Positions 6,807-11,708 of a stretch of 21,617 bases of DNA are shown here, piece after piece. Made by a program: the position numbers and the translations under genes. Source of the stretch: a virus. How positions within the stretch are numbered: the first letter of the stretch is position 1; every line of letters starts with the position of its first letter. The notes under the pieces are model-generated. The model ran no database searches. It saw nothing but the letters and a program-made list of their open reading frames with translations, and was not told the DNA's origin. The stretch spans positions 1 through 21,617 of the IMG/VR virus record IMGVR_UViG_3300032298_000257. The stretch is one strand, 5' to 3'.

Positions 6807-7715
6807 ATGGCTATTTCTCGTGCACAGCTCCTAAAAGAGCTACTCCCAGGACTCAATGCCTTGTTTGGACTTGAGTACGCTCGCTACGGCGAAGAACACA
6901 AAGAGATCTATGAAACAGAGACCTCTGAGCGTTCATTTGAAGAAGAAACAAAACTGTCAGGTTTCTCTGCAGCTCCTGTCAAAAACGAAGGCTCAGCCAT
7001 CGCTTATGACAATGCTCAAGAAGCATGGACAGCTCGCTACAACCACGAAACTATCGCTCTTGGCTTTAGCTTGACTGAAGAAGCAATCGAAGACAACCTC
7101 TACGATTCTTTGTCAGCTCGCTACACTAAGTCTTTAGCTCGTGCTATGGCTTATACCAAGCAAGTTAAAGCTGCTGCTGTATTGAATAACGGCTTCACTA
7201 CCGGTTACAACGGTGGCGATGGCGTTCCACTCTTCAGCGCATCACACCCATTGGTATCTGGCGGTACAAACAGCAACGTTCCATCTACTCCTGCTGACTT
7301 GAATGAGACTTCTTTGGAAGCCGCTGTAATTCAAATCGCTGCTTGGACTGATGAGCGTGGCCTATTGATCGCTGCTAAGCCTAAGAAGTTGGTTGTTCCT
7401 CCTGCATTACAGTTCGTGTCAACTCGTTTGCTCGAAACTGAATTGCGTGTTGGTACAAACGACAACGATATCAACGCTATCAAGAACAACGGTTCTGTCT
7501 CTGAAGGTTACACTGTTAACCACTTCTTGACCGACACCAATGCTTGGTTCCTGACTACTGATGTTCCAAACGGTATGAAGCATTTCGTTCGTACTCCTTT
7601 GAGCAACAGCATGGACGGTGATTTCGATACTGGTAACGTTCGTTACAAGTCTCGTGAGCGTTACAGCTTCGGCTGGTCTGATCCACTCGGAATGTATGGT
7701 TCAGCAGGTGCTTAA
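6807..7715 (+). CDS. Major capsid protein (HK97-fold, Mu gpT-like type)
   Basis: A 302-residue protein in the capsid position, followed at once by a strong terminator. The sequence starts ISRAQLLKELLPGLNALFGLEY, then an YETETSERSFEEETKLSGFS segment corresponding to the N-arm/E-loop region. A GFSLTEEAIEDNLYDSL helix, SARYTKSLARAMAYTKQVKAA and GVPLFSASHPL follow, then a P-domain-like KPKKLVVPPALQFVSTRLLE. This pattern is that of Mu gpT-like major capsid proteins. Codon use differs from neighbours: C-ending codons (AAC, TAC, TTC, ATC) are frequent, as expected for the most highly expressed phage gene. An AAGGAG lies at 6792-6797 ahead of ATG 6807. Confidence 0.92.
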   Translation: MAISRAQLLKELLPGLNALFGLEYARYGEEHKEIYETETSERSFEEETKLSGFSAAPVKNEGSAIAYDNAQEAWTARYNHETIALGFSLTEEAIEDNLYDSLSARYTKSLARAMAYTKQVKAAAVLNNGFTTGYNGGDGVPLFSASHPLVSGGTNSNVPSTPADLNETSLEAAVIQIAAWTDERGLLIAAKPKKLVVPPALQFVSTRLLETELRVGTNDNDINAIKNNGSVSEGYTVNHFLTDTNAWFLTTDVPNGMKHFVRTPLSNSMDGDFDTGNVRYKSRERYSFGWSDPLGMYGSAGA

Positions 7716-7746
7716 TTAAGCCCTATTCAAACGTAAATCAGTTTGG

Positions 7747-7775
7747 ACCCCGCTCACGAGGCGGGGTTTTTCTTT
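7747..7775 (+). terminator. Rho-independent terminator after the capsid gene
   Basis: CCCCGC (7748-7753) and GCGGGG (7761-7766) form a perfect six-pair GC stem, extended by A7747-T7767, with a seven-base loop and a T-rich tail TTTTTCTTTTC on the + strand. It lies 32 bases after the capsid stop and should end the head operon transcript. On the minus strand there is no T run after the hairpin, so it acts in the + direction only. The minus-strand HNH gene stops inside its loop (7754-7756). Confidence 0.9.
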
Positions 7776-8107
7776 TCTTCCCAATGATGTTTTCTATGGC
7801 AGTTTGCACATAGCACTACGCACTTTACGGCTTCTTCTACAGCCCGTGTAAATTGAGAATTTTTGATAAACCAACTAACGGCTTGATTTTTAGCGGCGGG
7901 ATCTTTATGGTGAAAGTCTAATGTTGCTGGGTGGTTCTCCCCGCAAATAGTGCATTTAAGGGTGGCTTTAAAAGTAGCCCAATCTAGCCTAGATTTTTTT
8001 TTATTTTCTTTGGTTCGTTGCTTAGTTTCTTCTTGGTTTTTTAAATAGTGTTCGTGGCTACGTACTTTGTGATACGCTTTTCTTACTTCCAGATCTTTGT
8101 AGGGCAT
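7754..8107 (-). CDS. HNH endonuclease-like protein
   Basis: A 117-residue protein on the strand opposite to all the virion genes. The N-terminal 45 residues are basic (PYKDLEVRKAYHKVRSHEHY, then a Lys-rich helix) and probably bind DNA. The HNH domain shows KCTICGENHPATLDFHHKDP (C52, C55, H66, H67, D69) and LCANCHRKHHW (C100, C103, H104, H107), the two CxxC pairs holding zinc and the HH/H residues for catalysis. It starts immediately after the TAA of the upstream peptidase gene (TAA-ATG) and stops inside the loop of the capsid terminator. HNH genes of this size in phages are often free-standing homing endonucleases or packaging-associated nucleases. The isolated opposite-strand position favours a mobile or accessory role rather than a packaging role, but both remain possible. 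Confidence 0.85.
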   Translation of the reverse strand: MPYKDLEVRKAYHKVRSHEHYLKNQEETKQRTKENKKKSRLDWATFKATLKCTICGENHPATLDFHHKDPAAKNQAVSWFIKNSQFTRAVEEAVKCVVLCANCHRKHHWEEKKNPAS

Positions 8108-8776
8108 TTAAACTCGCTTGTTATAACACTTCGCCAGCATTAAGTTTTTGATTTTAGTAGGTATTTTTGTGTAATCCCGATCAAAGTCAGTAGGCATCTT
8201 AGTCCAAACATCTGCTAAGTAAAATGGGGATTTACCCTTAGGGTACCAAAGGCGGGTAGTGCCGAGTATGTGGTAAAGATAAGCGTAGGCGTTGGCTTTT
8301 TGTACGTACTCTTTATGATTAATTGGAAGGTAAAACTCGTCAATCTTTTTAGCTGCCCGGATTTCACAATCTAGCTCAATGTTCATACAAGCCATTAAAA
8401 CTTCTTTTAGTTTCCTAGGCTTAAGCTCAATTTCATGTTCTAGCCAAGAATGCATTAGTTCTAAAGGGTCCCGTTTTTCTTCGTCTAGCTCAATCTTTTT
8501 ATTCCAAATAGTTGTTTTTTCTATAAACTGATCCCTATGGCAGCTTTCATGGACCATAGTTTGAACCCACTCATTTTCTTCCATATAACAAGCCACCACT
8601 AATTCTGGGGTAGTGCTACAAAAATACCCATGGCACCTAACGCGGTCAATCCACACGTGTTTTTTAGAAAGTAACTTGACCGGAATGTCATAAGAATTAC
8701 TAACCGCAATTTCGTAATCAACCCAACCAAGTACGTCTTTAGGAAGCTTTTTTAATTCAATGTCTATTGTGTTCAT
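8108..8776 (-). CDS. Zinc metallopeptidase-like protein with HExxH motif
   Basis: A 222-residue protein, middle gene of a minus-strand cassette. The segment EWVQTMVHESCHRDQFIE contains HExxH (H76-E77-S78-C79-H80), the zinc and catalytic signature of zincins. The later stretch MNIELDCEIRAAKKIDEF supplies acidic candidates for the third zinc ligand (E134 or E138), in the gluzincin arrangement. The spacing of nearly 60 residues, the DCExRAxK pattern and the total size resemble small phage-encoded peptidase-like proteins, which I remember as uncharacterised. There is no signal peptide or membrane segment, so it would act in the cytoplasm. Its ATG overlaps the stop of the upstream small membrane protein (ATGA). 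Substrate is unknown; proposals range from a host defence or regulator protein to a virion protein. Activity has not been shown and the motif could be structural only. Confidence 0.75.
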   Translation of the reverse strand: MNTIDIELKKLPKDVLGWVDYEIAVSNSYDIPVKLLSKKHVWIDRVRCHGYFCSTTPELVVACYMEENEWVQTMVHESCHRDQFIEKTTIWNKKIELDEEKRDPLELMHSWLEHEIELKPRKLKEVLMACMNIELDCEIRAAKKIDEFYLPINHKEYVQKANAYAYLYHILGTTRLWYPKGKSPFYLADVWTKMPTDFDRDYTKIPTKIKNLMLAKCYNKRV

Positions 8777-8919
8777 TTTGTTGCCATCAAGTAAAGACCT
8801 ACGTTAGAAAATGCGTACCCGCTATACACAACAGCCATAGCAAAGTTGCCTTTAAATCCCTGCTCTACAGCAATATAACCGTAAATAAGTCCTGTAACTA
8901 TGATAAGCCATGCACTCAT
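8773..8919 (-). CDS. Small membrane protein (48 residues, two predicted membrane helices)
   Basis: This short gene reads MSAWLIIVTGLIYGYIAVEQ at its start, then a Gly/Phe/Lys/Asn turn, and FAMAVVYSGYAFSNVGLYLM near its end. Two hydrophobic segments (about 2-20 and 27-45) separated by a polar GFKGN turn indicate a hairpin membrane protein. The evidence for a real gene is a good ribosome binding site (AGGAGAT just before the ATG, minus strand, at 8921-8928) and an ATGA overlap with the peptidase start at 8776, giving translational coupling. It is the first or second gene of the cassette. Size and topology would suit a small holin-like or superinfection-type membrane protein, but there is nothing specific to choose a function. 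Confidence 0.7.
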   Translation of the reverse strand: MSAWLIIVTGLIYGYIAVEQGFKGNFAMAVVYSGYAFSNVGLYLMATK

Positions 8920-9011
8920 GCTATCTCCTGTTGGTGGGTAGGTTGTTCAACTAAGCAATGTCTAAAATACCCCATCCCGGCAAATCCAACCCCCCAAACT
9001 ATTTTACTCAA
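8916..9011 (-). CDS. Possible leader peptide gene upstream of the small membrane protein (31 residues, TTG start)
   Basis: A minus-strand frame from TTG at 9011 to TGA at 8916 encodes a hydrophobic N-terminus SKIVWGVGFAGMGYF followed by a polar tail RHCLVEQPTHQQEIA. Its TGA overlaps the ATG of the next gene as ATGA, the same coupling as between the next pair, which is the main reason to list it. The start is uncertain: the TTG has only a distant GGGAAG upstream, and an internal ATG (at 8975) would leave 19 residues. The hydrophobic part is short for a full membrane helix. It may be a chance frame. Confidence 0.35.
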   Translation of the reverse strand: MSKIVWGVGFAGMGYFRHCLVEQPTHQQEIA

Positions 9012-9017
9012 AAAAGC

Positions 9018-9045
9018 TTGCACTTCCCTGTAAATGTAGTAATAT
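9018..9045 (+). promoter_or_regulatory. Candidate sigma70-like promoter for the post-capsid operon
   Basis: TTGCAC (9018-9023) and TAATAT (9040-9045) are separated by 16 bases. They match the TTGACA/TATAAT consensus at three and four of six positions, so the site is weak on sequence alone. Its support is position: the previous transcript is terminated at 7747-7775, the intervening genes are on the other strand, and the + strand genes from 9136 on therefore need a promoter in this gap. Confidence 0.35.
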
Positions 9046-9053
9046 TCAATGAA

Positions 9054-9113
9054 CCGGGAAAACCGGCTTATCAAACTGTCCCGGCAGACAGCATATTGAT
9101 TGATAAGCTTATC
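9054..9113 (+). other. Leader with three dyad symmetries, including a perfect 12-bp palindrome
   Basis: Between the candidate promoter and the first gene of the next operon lie CCGG-GAAAA-CCGG (9054-9066), CTGTC-CCGGCA-GACAG (9076-9091) and the perfect palindrome GATAAGCTTATC (9102-9113). The palindrome could bind a dimeric regulator; the other two could fold in the mRNA. None is followed by a T run, so they are not standard terminators. Function is unknown, but the clustering within 60 bases is noticeable. Confidence 0.4.
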
Positions 9114-9135
9114 TTATATGCAAGGACAATTTATT

Positions 9136-9645
9136 ATGACTTTAGCTACTACCTCGTCTTTATGGCGTTCTACAGGTGGCGATTCAACTCGCACCGCTTA
9201 TGCTGGTTCCATGGACATGGTTGCCCAGTTTTATATCGCTAACACATCAGCTACAACCGCAAACGTAGTGGTTTCCTCTACTAACTCTGCTCCAATCATT
9301 TTGCCAGCAGGCGCTGTTGTATTGACTGTTAATATCACTAATCCATCTACAGGCGCTAACTCTACCTGTAACGTAGGGTTTACCCCAATAATTGGCGTAG
9401 GTCCTGGCCAAACTGGTACTCTAGGCACTAACGTTCCTAACGCATTTGTTAACAACGCTAACGTAACTGCTCGTACAGCTATCCAAATCGGCGGCACAGG
9501 CGGGGGTACTCAGTTAGGTAACGTTGCTAACACAACTAACTTAATTGTTGTTACTTCTGCTATTGGTACTGCTGGTGCAGTTGGCGGTCCAGTTACTGGG
9601 TCTATTCGTTATTACGTAGCAGACGACGGTCAGCAAAACGTTTAA
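9136..9645 (+). CDS. Beta-rich virion-type protein of unknown function
   Basis: The start is placed at ATG 9136 (MTLATTSSLWRSTGG), because AAGGA at 9122-9126 sits nine bases upstream; a longer frame from 9100 would run back through the ribosome binding site and palindrome and is less likely. The 169-residue product is rich in Thr, Val, Asn, Gly and Ala. Alternating hydrophobic patterns point to an all-beta fold (ANVVVSSTNSAPIILPAGAV, IRYYVADDGQ at the end), and there is no cysteine apart from one in a SSTCNVGF-like stretch. No catalytic motif or membrane segment is visible. As the first gene of the operon that contains the adaptors and fibres, it is probably a structural protein such as a decoration or tail component. 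I do not recognise a named family. Confidence 0.75.
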   Translation: MTLATTSSLWRSTGGDSTRTAYAGSMDMVAQFYIANTSATTANVVVSSTNSAPIILPAGAVVLTVNITNPSTGANSTCNVGFTPIIGVGPGQTGTLGTNVPNAFVNNANVTARTAIQIGGTGGGTQLGNVANTTNLIVVTSAIGTAGAVGGPVTGSIRYYVADDGQQNV

Positions 9646-10234: not shown

Positions 10235-10482
10235 TGAACGAAATGGATCCAATAAAGACTGCTAGGGAACTAGCTACCCATGCCAACGACATAGAACATT
10301 TGCAGGAAGACATGGATAAGATGGTCAAAGAAATGCAAGAAATTAAACTTGCCATACAATCAATTAATAAAACCCTGTCCGAAGCTAAGGGTGGTTGGAA
10401 AACTTTGATGGCTATTGGTGGTTTTGTAAGCGTTTTAACTGGGGTAGCCGGATTTATTGCTGGGTACTGGGGTAATAAATAA
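10234..10482 (+). CDS. Holin-like (XhlA-type) membrane protein
   Basis: An 82-residue protein with the layout of the XhlA/hemolysin family. Residues 1-50 are a charged helix with heptad-like pattern (ANDIEHLQEDMDKMVKEMQE, IKLAIQSINKTLSEAKGG). One membrane helix follows (WKTLMAIGGFVSVLTGVAGF, about 55-78), and a short tail ends it. In XhlA-like proteins a cytoplasmic coiled coil joined to one membrane helix assists phage lysis, though similar proteins also occur in phage structural regions. The start chosen is ATG 10234 in a TAATG overlap with GGAAG at 10224; an in-frame ATG at 10222 is possible and would add four residues. The stop again overlaps the next ATG (10482). No endolysin lies next to it, so a lysis role is not certain. 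Confidence 0.72.
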   Translation: MNEMDPIKTARELATHANDIEHLQEDMDKMVKEMQEIKLAIQSINKTLSEAKGGWKTLMAIGGFVSVLTGVAGFIAGYWGNK

Positions 10483-10820
10483 TGCCAAGTAAGTCAGCAA
10501 AGCAAGCAAGAACAATGGCAGCCGCAGCCCACAACCCTGCGTTTGCTAAGAAAGTTGGTATCCCAACGGGCGTTGCAAAAGAATTTAACAAAGCCGATAA
10601 AGGCAAAACTTTTAAAGAAGGTGGACTTATGAAACACGACGACATAAAAAAAGATATGCCAATGATGAAAAAAGTGGCCAAGCAAGAAGTTAAAGCCCAC
10701 GAAAAATCAATGCATAAAATGGCTAAGGGCGGCTCCGCTTCTTCTCGTGCTGATGGTTGCGCTACACAAGGCAAAACTAAAGGCACAATGATTTCAATGA
10801 AAAACGGTGGAAGCTGTTAA
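10482..10820 (+). CDS. Small basic protein with SRADG...GKTKG C-terminus
   Basis: A 112-residue, Lys/Met-rich protein. The N-terminal part PSKSAKQARTMAAAAHNPAF followed by AKKVGIPTGVAKEFNKADKG matches a pattern I remember from many phage and metagenomic proteins (SKSAKQxRxMAAAAHNPxFAKKVGIP), function unknown. The middle is a charged helical stretch with many Met, Lys and His. The C-terminal end is KGGSASSRADGCATQGKTKG and then a short TMISMKNGGSC tail. The SRADG-GKTKG part recurs in the next genes. The protein contains no catalytic motif or membrane segment. It starts in a TAATG overlap with the holin-like gene and ends two bases before the next gene. A role as a small internal virion protein or nucleic-acid-binding protein is inferred from charge only. 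Confidence 0.72.
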   Translation: MPSKSAKQARTMAAAAHNPAFAKKVGIPTGVAKEFNKADKGKTFKEGGLMKHDDIKKDMPMMKKVAKQEVKAHEKSMHKMAKGGSASSRADGCATQGKTKGTMISMKNGGSC

Positions 10821-10822
10821 TC

Positions 10823-11092
10823 ATGGCTACTAAAGCTGACAAGCTTATGGCTACTCTAAGTGAAAAGACCGTCGGTACCGGCGAAGAGCAGGGCGCTGTT
10901 TTAGAGAAGCTTAAAAGTAAGGCTGCCGATAAAAAGTATCAACGCGGTTTAAGTGCTGTATTAGCTGGTTCACCAGAGTATCCTAAAGCTCCACCCCCAA
11001 CCTCGACTACAACTAGCATGAGAAAAGGCGGTTACGTACGTGCTGCCGACGGCATTGCTAAAAAAGGTAAAACTAAAGGAAAGATTGTTTAA
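10823..11092 (+). CDS. Small protein with RAADGIAKKGKTKGKIV C-terminus (copy 2)
   Basis: An 89-residue protein with a helical, charged N-terminus (ATKADKLMATLSEKTVGTGE, EQGAVLEKLKSKAADKKYQR), a Pro/Thr-rich linker (PPPTSTTTS), and the C-terminus KGGYVRAADGIAKKGKTKGK followed by IV. The C-terminal stretch from 11021 to 11089 matches that of the gene at 11394-11708 in protein and largely in DNA. A run of 24 identical bases (11039-11062 and 11655-11678) lies in it. The N-terminal parts of the tag-bearing proteins differ from each other, so the tag looks like an exchangeable module. The gene starts two bases after the previous stop. No function is known. Confidence 0.72.
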   Translation: MATKADKLMATLSEKTVGTGEEQGAVLEKLKSKAADKKYQRGLSAVLAGSPEYPKAPPPTSTTTSMRKGGYVRAADGIAKKGKTKGKIV

Positions 11093-11094
11093 TC

Positions 11095-11394
11095 ATGGCT
11101 AAACCACTACAGCAAGACGACGAAGGTCGCATTATTAACGACGTAGAAACCCAAAAGAATCAAAAAGGTTACGAAAACTACGAGGCTGATCTTAAAAAGC
11201 GCCAAAGCGAAATGGAAGCTAAAGATAAAGAGTCTACGCTTAAAAGTAGGGGCCTTAACCTTATGAAACTTGGTTCTGATTTGCTTAGCCGTCCCATGGA
11301 GAAAAAAGCTAAGGGCGGTTCAATTAAGTCTTCAGCTTCTTCTCGTGCCGACGGCATTGCTAAAAAGGGTAAGACTCGTGGGAAGATTTGCTAA
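11095..11394 (+). CDS. Small protein with SRADGIAKKGKTRGKIC C-terminus (copy 3)
   Basis: A 99-residue, very hydrophilic protein. Residues 1-60 are charged and probably a long helix (EGRIINDVETQKNQKGYENY, EADLKKRQSEMEAKDKESTL). A short GLNLMKLGSDLLSRP segment follows, and the C-terminus is KKAKGGSIKSSASSRADGIA with KKGKTRGKIC. The C-terminal tag shares about 18 to 21 identical bases with copies 2 and 4 (for example around 11344-11364). The Ser-rich lead-in SSASSRADG is shared with the gene at 10482. The start lies two bases after the preceding stop, and the end overlaps the next ATG (TAATG at 11392-11396). It may be a minor virion component; the family is not recognised. Confidence 0.72.
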   Translation: MAKPLQQDDEGRIINDVETQKNQKGYENYEADLKKRQSEMEAKDKESTLKSRGLNLMKLGSDLLSRPMEKKAKGGSIKSSASSRADGIAKKGKTRGKIC

Positions 11395-11708
11395 TGAAGC
11401 AAATGGAAATGAACCTTGGCTTGCCAGAAACGGCAGAAAAAGATACTAGCAAACAGGACAAGGCTCGCGCCCGTGCAGTTGAGAATGAAGAATTTAAAGA
11501 TAAGCGCCAACCAAAAAGTGATTTGATTCGTCAAGCTGAGTTAGATAAGATGAAAGAAACACTTAATATGCCAAGAAGTGGCGGTGGTGGTGGCGGTGGG
11601 ATACCTAAAGTAGGACCTAAAAAACCTACTGATATGAAAAAAGGCGGTTATGTTCGTGCTGCCGACGGCATTGCTAAACGCGGTAGAACTAAAGGGCGGA
11701 TGGTATGA
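11394..11708 (+). CDS. Small protein with RAADGIAKRGRTKGRMV C-terminus (copy 4)
   Basis: The start is taken at ATG 11394, in TAATG overlap with the previous gene; an ATG two codons upstream is less likely. The 104-residue protein has a charged helical N-terminal half (EMNLGLPETAEKDTSKQDKA, RARAVENEEFKDKRQPKSDL), a short polyglycine stretch (SGGGGGGGIPKVG), and the C-terminal KKGGYVRAADGIAKRGRTKG and RMV. In this copy several Lys of the tag are replaced by Arg, keeping the charge. The polyglycine looks like a flexible linker between the helical part and the tag. The last ATGA overlaps the start of the following gene at 11705. No function can be assigned. Confidence 0.72.
   Translation: MKQMEMNLGLPETAEKDTSKQDKARARAVENEEFKDKRQPKSDLIRQAELDKMKETLNMPRSGGGGGGGIPKVGPKKPTDMKKGGYVRAADGIAKRGRTKGRMV

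Follow-up and report, generated by a model that had tools for sequence, protein, structure and literature searches.

A modular HNH nuclease cassette with interchangeable cargo at two sites in Pam1/HTVC023P-like podophages

RESULTS

Three coupled genes lie on the minus strand between the capsid and cement genes

On its plus strand, the window (the whole stretch of DNA analyzed here, a 21.6-kb virus record) encodes terL, portal, GroES-like, scaffold, capsid, cement, and tail genes. Their order matches that of phage HTVC023P and of phage DSL-LC04, the latter with annotated GroES, capsid, cement, and Pam1-type adaptor proteins. Between its capsid and cement genes lie three genes on the opposite strand, encoding a two-helix membrane peptide (TM48), a predicted metallopeptidase (PEP), and an HNH endonuclease (Table 1). 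Their coordinates agree with the initial annotation, which had described a minus-strand cassette of a membrane peptide, an HExxH protein, and an HNH nuclease at this position.

Table 1. Features of the capsid-cement region of the window, with positions in the window
Feature	Position	Strand	Evidence and remarks
Major capsid protein gene	6807..7715	+	Pfam Phage_capsid_4, E 4e-15; PHROG major head protein; left neighbor of the slot
Intrinsic terminator stem-loop of the capsid operon	7745..7769	+	Terminator scan and alignment of carriers; overlaps the 3' end of HNH
HNH endonuclease	7754..8107	-	117 aa; PHROG 3106, E 2e-22; constant 3' gene of the cassette
PEP, predicted gluzincin-type metallopeptidase	8108..8776	-	222 aa; 24-row alignment, AlphaFold2 model
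TM48, two-helix membrane peptide (hairpin)	8773..8919	-	48 aa; hydropathy, conservation, codon-position test
Possible fourth gene (rejected)	8916..9074	-	Initially annotated with a start at ~9011
Cement-gene promoter, TTGCAC-16-TAATAT	9018..9045	+	Read directly in the sequence; kept in carriers L002, L022, and L023; right edge of the slot
Structured RNA leader of the cement gene	9052..9128	+	Four helices, two pseudoknots; outside the cassette
Cement/decoration protein gene	9136..9645	+	Same position as the cement protein of phage DSL-LC04; right neighbor of the slot

When the window is compared with carrier L002, substitutions at codon positions 1/2/3 number 20/11/36 in HNH, 3/2/24 in PEP, and 5/7/21 in TM48, and 22 of the 48 TM48 columns are invariant across 13 sequences. 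The tight coupling reported initially is likewise seen as described: TM48 and PEP overlap by ATGA, as in all TM48 carriers checked, and the PEP stop codon TAA of the window directly abuts the HNH ATG. Across carriers, the PEP/HNH junction reads TAAATG, TAGATG, TAATG, or TGATG, or consists of a few-base spacer or overlap, at either of the two sites described below (gap of -2 to +11 bp in the set of 94 dereplicated HNH loci), and the gene order and junctions of the cassette recur in many distinct genomes. Altogether, the codon-like substitution patterns and the conserved tight junctions indicate that HNH, PEP, and TM48 are real genes and not chance open reading frames.

The possible fourth gene of the initial annotation did not withstand the same comparison. 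Its substitutions (12/5/5) have no third-position excess, its frame is not preserved in L003 or L018, and it runs into both the cement-gene promoter and the RNA leader. A promoter scan upstream of TM48 found no minus-strand promoter above chance for the cassette, which lies on the strand opposite to the virion genes.

The cassette occupies a slot that is empty in most close relatives

In the alignments, the cassette is placed precisely where the capsid terminator meets the cement promoter, such that neither transcription unit is broken, and in empty genomes these two elements directly adjoin. Given the extent of the terminator stem, the final HNH codons (KKNPAS) lie within or beside it. The capsid-to-cement gap measures 133-157 bp in ten relatives, and in most other relatives a diverged plus-strand gene begins shortly after the capsid gene.

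Among the 80 best capsid relatives, which were chosen by capsid similarity, HNH is found in the slot in seven and PEP in none, and the cassette is absent from most relatives with an 88-94% identical capsid protein and intact head genes. Across 19 whole records, 8 have HNH and 7 have PEP, always as a single gene (the PEP gene of G015 is split across the contig ends); HTVC023P and Pag-Yong1 lack the cassette. The nearest whole record, G004 (TerL 85% identical), has an empty slot and no HNH, and its PEP gene sits elsewhere, after a metallophosphoesterase and far from the head genes. In G001, the slot holds an unrelated minus-strand gene without HNH (L161, 6640-7250). The cassette is an accessory element, as first proposed: among capsid relatives the slot is filled in some and empty in most, and the trio stays together in many distinct genomes without being core in all relatives. 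Its carriers include some freshwater phages.

Two observations concern the neighborhoods of these sites. The protein encoded in the G001 slot (minus strand) resembles, by eye, that encoded at L005 4939-5355, between HNH and terS; the two share a C-Y-D-W-H motif, are perhaps oxygenase-like, and both occupy accessory sites used by HNH cassettes. In addition, in L026-L101 the gene following the capsid gene is often highly diverged (cement/decoration-like) despite ~90% identity of the capsid protein, with the leader structure kept.

PEP is probably a gluzincin of no known family

The 24-row alignment of PEP contains the motif H76-E-S-C-H80-R-D-Q83 and the invariant stretch E134-L-D-C-E138, and residues H76, E77, H80, Q83, E134, and E138 are invariant along with many others. 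In the AlphaFold2 model (pLDDT 92.8), HExxH lies on helix 67-86 and E134/E138 on helix 120-147. An HExxH helix followed by a later Glu helix is also characteristic of IrrE, the minigluzincins selecase and abylysin, and phage SprT- and IrrE-like proteins, from which PEP differs in its extra C-terminal helical part, its conserved VWTKMPTDF stretch, and its HExxHRDQ motif. The fold search gave no match at E ≤ 0.001 (best E 0.33, PDB), and its top weak matches are mostly zincins, including IrrE and minigluzincins; against the viral structure library, phage IrrE- and SprT-like proteins are among the top weak matches. From the invariant HExxH and Glu residues and the confident model, together with these weak zincin-type fold matches, we read PEP as a probable active gluzincin that falls into no known family.

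PEP was not assigned to Pfam DUF6782 (PF20573, putative metallopeptidase), since it scores 23.0 bits over the HExxH region (residues 44-88 only), below the gathering score of 27 bits; a literature search found no paper on DUF6782. Sequence searches of NCBIfam and PDB returned nothing useful for PEP. Comparison with PADLOC gave weak scores for both enzymes of the cassette (HEC-01B, 16.6 bits, for PEP; LmuB, 17.8 bits, for HNH), and neither was assigned to a defense family.

A host origin of PEP was also considered and rejected, since no close relative was found on plasmids or in the bacterial and archaeal genome collection searched (18 pattern hits, none confirmed). Distant phage homologues, which belong to jumbo phages, are limited to XacN1, CM1, RAS14, and a 642-kb phage, and in XacN1 the homologue adjoins a phosphoesterase. 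We also observed that at L017, L019, L020, and L134, where PEP stands beside a metallophosphoesterase and without HNH, it is coupled to, or a neighbor of, metallophosphoesterase/exonuclease-like genes where a virion operon ends.

Cleavage of host proteins has been proposed as the function of patchily distributed phage zincins (PMC7824862), and polyvalent phage proteins commonly contain zincin domains (PMC5512222). A role of PEP in conflict may be suggested by analogy with these proteins only. With superinfection exclusion, one of the host-directed functions raised initially, TM48 and PEP are only compatible.

The HNH gene occurs at two sites in fixed orientation with interchangeable cargo

HNH contains the motif Asp64-Phe-His66-His67, and its catalytic and zinc residues Cys52, Cys55, Asp64, His66, His67, Cys100, Asn102, and His104 are invariant across 19 sequences. 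The structural model has a pLDDT of 89, and the fold search returned weak HNH-core matches only.

Scans for PEP, HNH, and the HslV-like gene yielded 161 HNH loci, or 94 after dereplication, a sample biased toward nucleases similar to that of the window, so that the counts given here are not population frequencies. Sixty-seven of the 94 loci lie in the capsid slot, all of them opposite to the capsid gene, and 18 lie at a terminase site upstream of terS/terL, all co-directional with it; the remaining nine are cut by contig ends or unassigned. The gene coupled just upstream of HNH, to which we refer as cargo, encodes one of three unrelated enzymes or is missing. GNAT acetyltransferases are found at 20 slot and 3 terminase-site loci, HslV-family peptidases (PHROG 1040, E 5e-26) at 25 and 3, and PEP at 9 and 10, and no cargo is recognized at 13 and 2 (15 of the 85 placed loci). 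The full TM48-PEP-HNH trio occupies the slot at nine distinct loci, and the trio or PEP-HNH precedes terS at ten further loci. The peptidase cargoes are often preceded by TM48 or, in L022-like loci, by an 88-aa membrane protein (Pfam DUF6552). In DSL-LC04, HNH overlaps an annotated ATP-dependent protease of the HslV type on the opposite strand, ~1 kb beyond the annotated terS. Locus L006 keeps TM48-PEP and lacks HNH.

Altogether, the locus is modular, with a constant HNH and an interchangeable upstream cargo at two sites in Pam1/HTVC023P-like podophages. A strict dependence of the two on each other is made less likely by the HNH loci that lack recognized cargo and by the PEP loci that lack HNH (L006, L017, L019, L020, and L134). 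Since HNH is the constant element, accompanied by three unrelated enzymes at two fixed sites, we hold with moderate confidence that it is more likely a mobility or selfish module; the initial annotation had offered it as either the effector or the mobility agent of the cassette, and it is the latter role that these data favor.

PEP and HNH share much of their history, and capsid silent sites suggest homing

Pairwise distances of PEP and HNH are correlated (Mantel r 0.78; as high in 0 of 2,000 shuffles), which indicates that the two mostly travel together. Individual placements cross both sites and cargo types. The slot PEP of L006 nests within the clade of terminase-site PEP (support 100/99), and the HNH of L027, in the slot with an HslV cargo, is sister to the HNH of L014, at the terminase site with a PEP cargo (support 100/97). 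The best HNH tree implies at least 19 changes of cargo and at least 13 changes of site; these counts are rough, since they come from a short tree with weak support. Between the window and L002, the cassette is a mosaic, with nucleotide identities of 78% in TM48, 96% in PEP, and 81% in HNH.

If a cassette is copied by break repair, the capsids of carriers are predicted to be more alike near the slot. We therefore compared third-position identity between the 3' and 5' halves of the capsid gene (3' minus 5'). The mean difference is +0.050 for pairs of carriers, -0.024 for pairs of non-carriers, and +0.015 for mixed pairs (label permutation, p 4e-4). When genomes were matched for base composition, p was 0.005 with GC3 up to 0.50 and 0.11 with GC3 up to 0.45, where few genomes are left. 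This rise in silent-site identity toward the slot may be read as a signal of homing with co-conversion, and is suggestive only. Homing nucleases are found near capsid and terminase genes in many phages (PMC10448857), and co-conversion has been described for the free-standing nucleases of T4 (PMC2988022).

DISCUSSION

When a phage nuclease gene lies near the capsid or terminase genes, the usual interpretation is either a selfish homing gene or a packaging factor. The arrangement reported here is a natural experiment, in which one HNH family is combined with three unrelated cargo enzymes at two fixed-orientation sites, with many empty relatives. It opens to testing the idea that accessory genes of benefit to the phage are carried by a homing nuclease. 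PEP, in turn, represents a further family of phage peptidases, whose fold is predicted with confidence and has no close counterpart among solved structures.

We consider it fairly probable that the cassette is a moron using two sites, composed of a homing-type HNH mobility module and interchangeable host-directed cargo. The cassette resides in one of two fixed places, either inverted in the neutral gap between capsid and cement genes or co-directional upstream of terS-terL. During mixed infections, HNH would act in the manner of a free-standing homing nuclease and cut alleles that lack the cassette or belong to a rival, and break repair would then copy the cassette and its flanks into the cut allele; we have moderate confidence in both of these steps. 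A cytoplasmic PEP would be made together with the TM48 membrane hairpin. More tentatively, PEP might be active and cleave a protein of the host or of a rival phage, perhaps together with TM48 at the membrane, and the resulting advantage to the carrier might pay for the passenger. Against this reading, the homing signal is modest, and no minus-strand promoter was detected above chance. At L006 and at the four loci where PEP stands beside a metallophosphoesterase, moreover, PEP occurs without HNH, which shows that HNH is not needed for PEP to spread.

Several known systems resemble this arrangement in part. Like the T4-type free-standing homing endonucleases (mob/seg; PMC2988022) and IPA-HNH/T5orf172 (PMC10448857), HNH is a small nuclease gene that lies between conserved genes, near those for capsid or terminase, and that differs in presence among close relatives. 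The likeness extends to the suggestive silent-site homogenization of the flank and, for mobE and segF, to a terminator overlapping the nuclease gene, as in the HNH of the window. Unlike all of these, HNH closes a coupled operon whose enzyme cargo is non-essential, and its site-specific cleavage is putative. The HEG-islands of ICP1-like phages (PMC10448857) likewise exchange nuclease and cargo as a unit with interchangeable members, but they have at least two flanking nucleases and an essential cargo, whereas here there is a single HNH and the cargo is absent from most relatives. As in phage morons, an extra block missing in relatives lies between the terminator and the promoter of core genes; unlike them, the cassette has its own linked nuclease and swaps its cargo class at two fixed sites.

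The last comparison bears on the foremost alternative, namely plain moron exchange, in which the two sites are merely tolerated gaps where any properly oriented gene survives and HNH is a frequent passenger with no role in moving the rest. The unrelated minus-strand gene without HNH in the G001 slot means that the slot may be merely a tolerated site, and TM48-PEP without HNH at L006, as well as the gene-by-gene mosaic between the window and L002, where PEP is far more similar than the genes on either side, would follow naturally. We nevertheless regard this alternative as rather unlikely, because it does not account for the association of one HNH with three unrelated cargoes in fixed order and coupling, for the correlation of PEP and HNH distances, or for the silent-site gradient toward the slot among carriers.

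The recurrence of three unrelated protein-modifying enzymes in the same coupled position upstream of HNH also invites a bolder reading, in which the upstream enzyme controls the nuclease. The cassette would then be a new phage-borne conflict module, directed at rival phages or host defense, in which proteolysis or acetylation restrains HNH or switches it on and the membrane peptide serves as a sensor or an anchor. We give this reading a low probability.

A further alternative assigns HNH a packaging role of the HK97 gp74 kind and takes the cassette for a displaced packaging module. In its favor, the same HNH lies directly upstream of terS-terL in several relatives, the place at which HK97-type HNH proteins assist terminase (discussed in PMC10448857). 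However, HNH and terL of the window are 6 kb apart on opposite strands, and most close relatives do without HNH (11 of the 19 records, G004 included), such that we find a packaging role quite improbable. Least credible, and in our judgment very improbable, is a role of PEP in virion maturation, with capsid or scaffold proteins as its substrates. Such a role would account for the position of PEP in the head operon beside the capsid gene and has been proposed for uncharacterized zincins of other phages (PMC7824862), but PEP is missing from most relatives with nearly the same capsid protein and intact head genes and, in G004, lies far from those genes.

Additional features of the window

The RNA leader just upstream of the cement-gene Shine-Dalgarno covaries strongly and occurs with and without the cassette. 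Its helices follow the order A C B A' B' D C' D', which corresponds to two interlocking pseudoknots. Across 30 sequences, standard pairs fill 88.0% of pair cells (68.8% in shuffles) and double changes number 161 (53 in shuffles), and helix C, with 53 different 5' arms, pairs at 7.80 of 8 positions within a sequence versus 4.27 of 8 between sequences. Rfam gave no match for the window at the gathering threshold, and a permissive search with the leader gave chance-level hits only. The leader model matches 15 of the 19 records (once in 14 and twice in G007), and in HTVC023P and DSL-LC04 the leader lies upstream of the gene after the capsid gene. The leader could serve to control the cement protein, which is made at a high level, or it could act as a ribozyme or bind a protein.

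Further downstream, positions 10482-11708 of the window hold a series of short genes on the plus strand, in whose products C-terminal tails of the 'ADGIAKKGKTKGK' type recur, which looks like the repeated duplication of a small Lys/Gly-rich protein.
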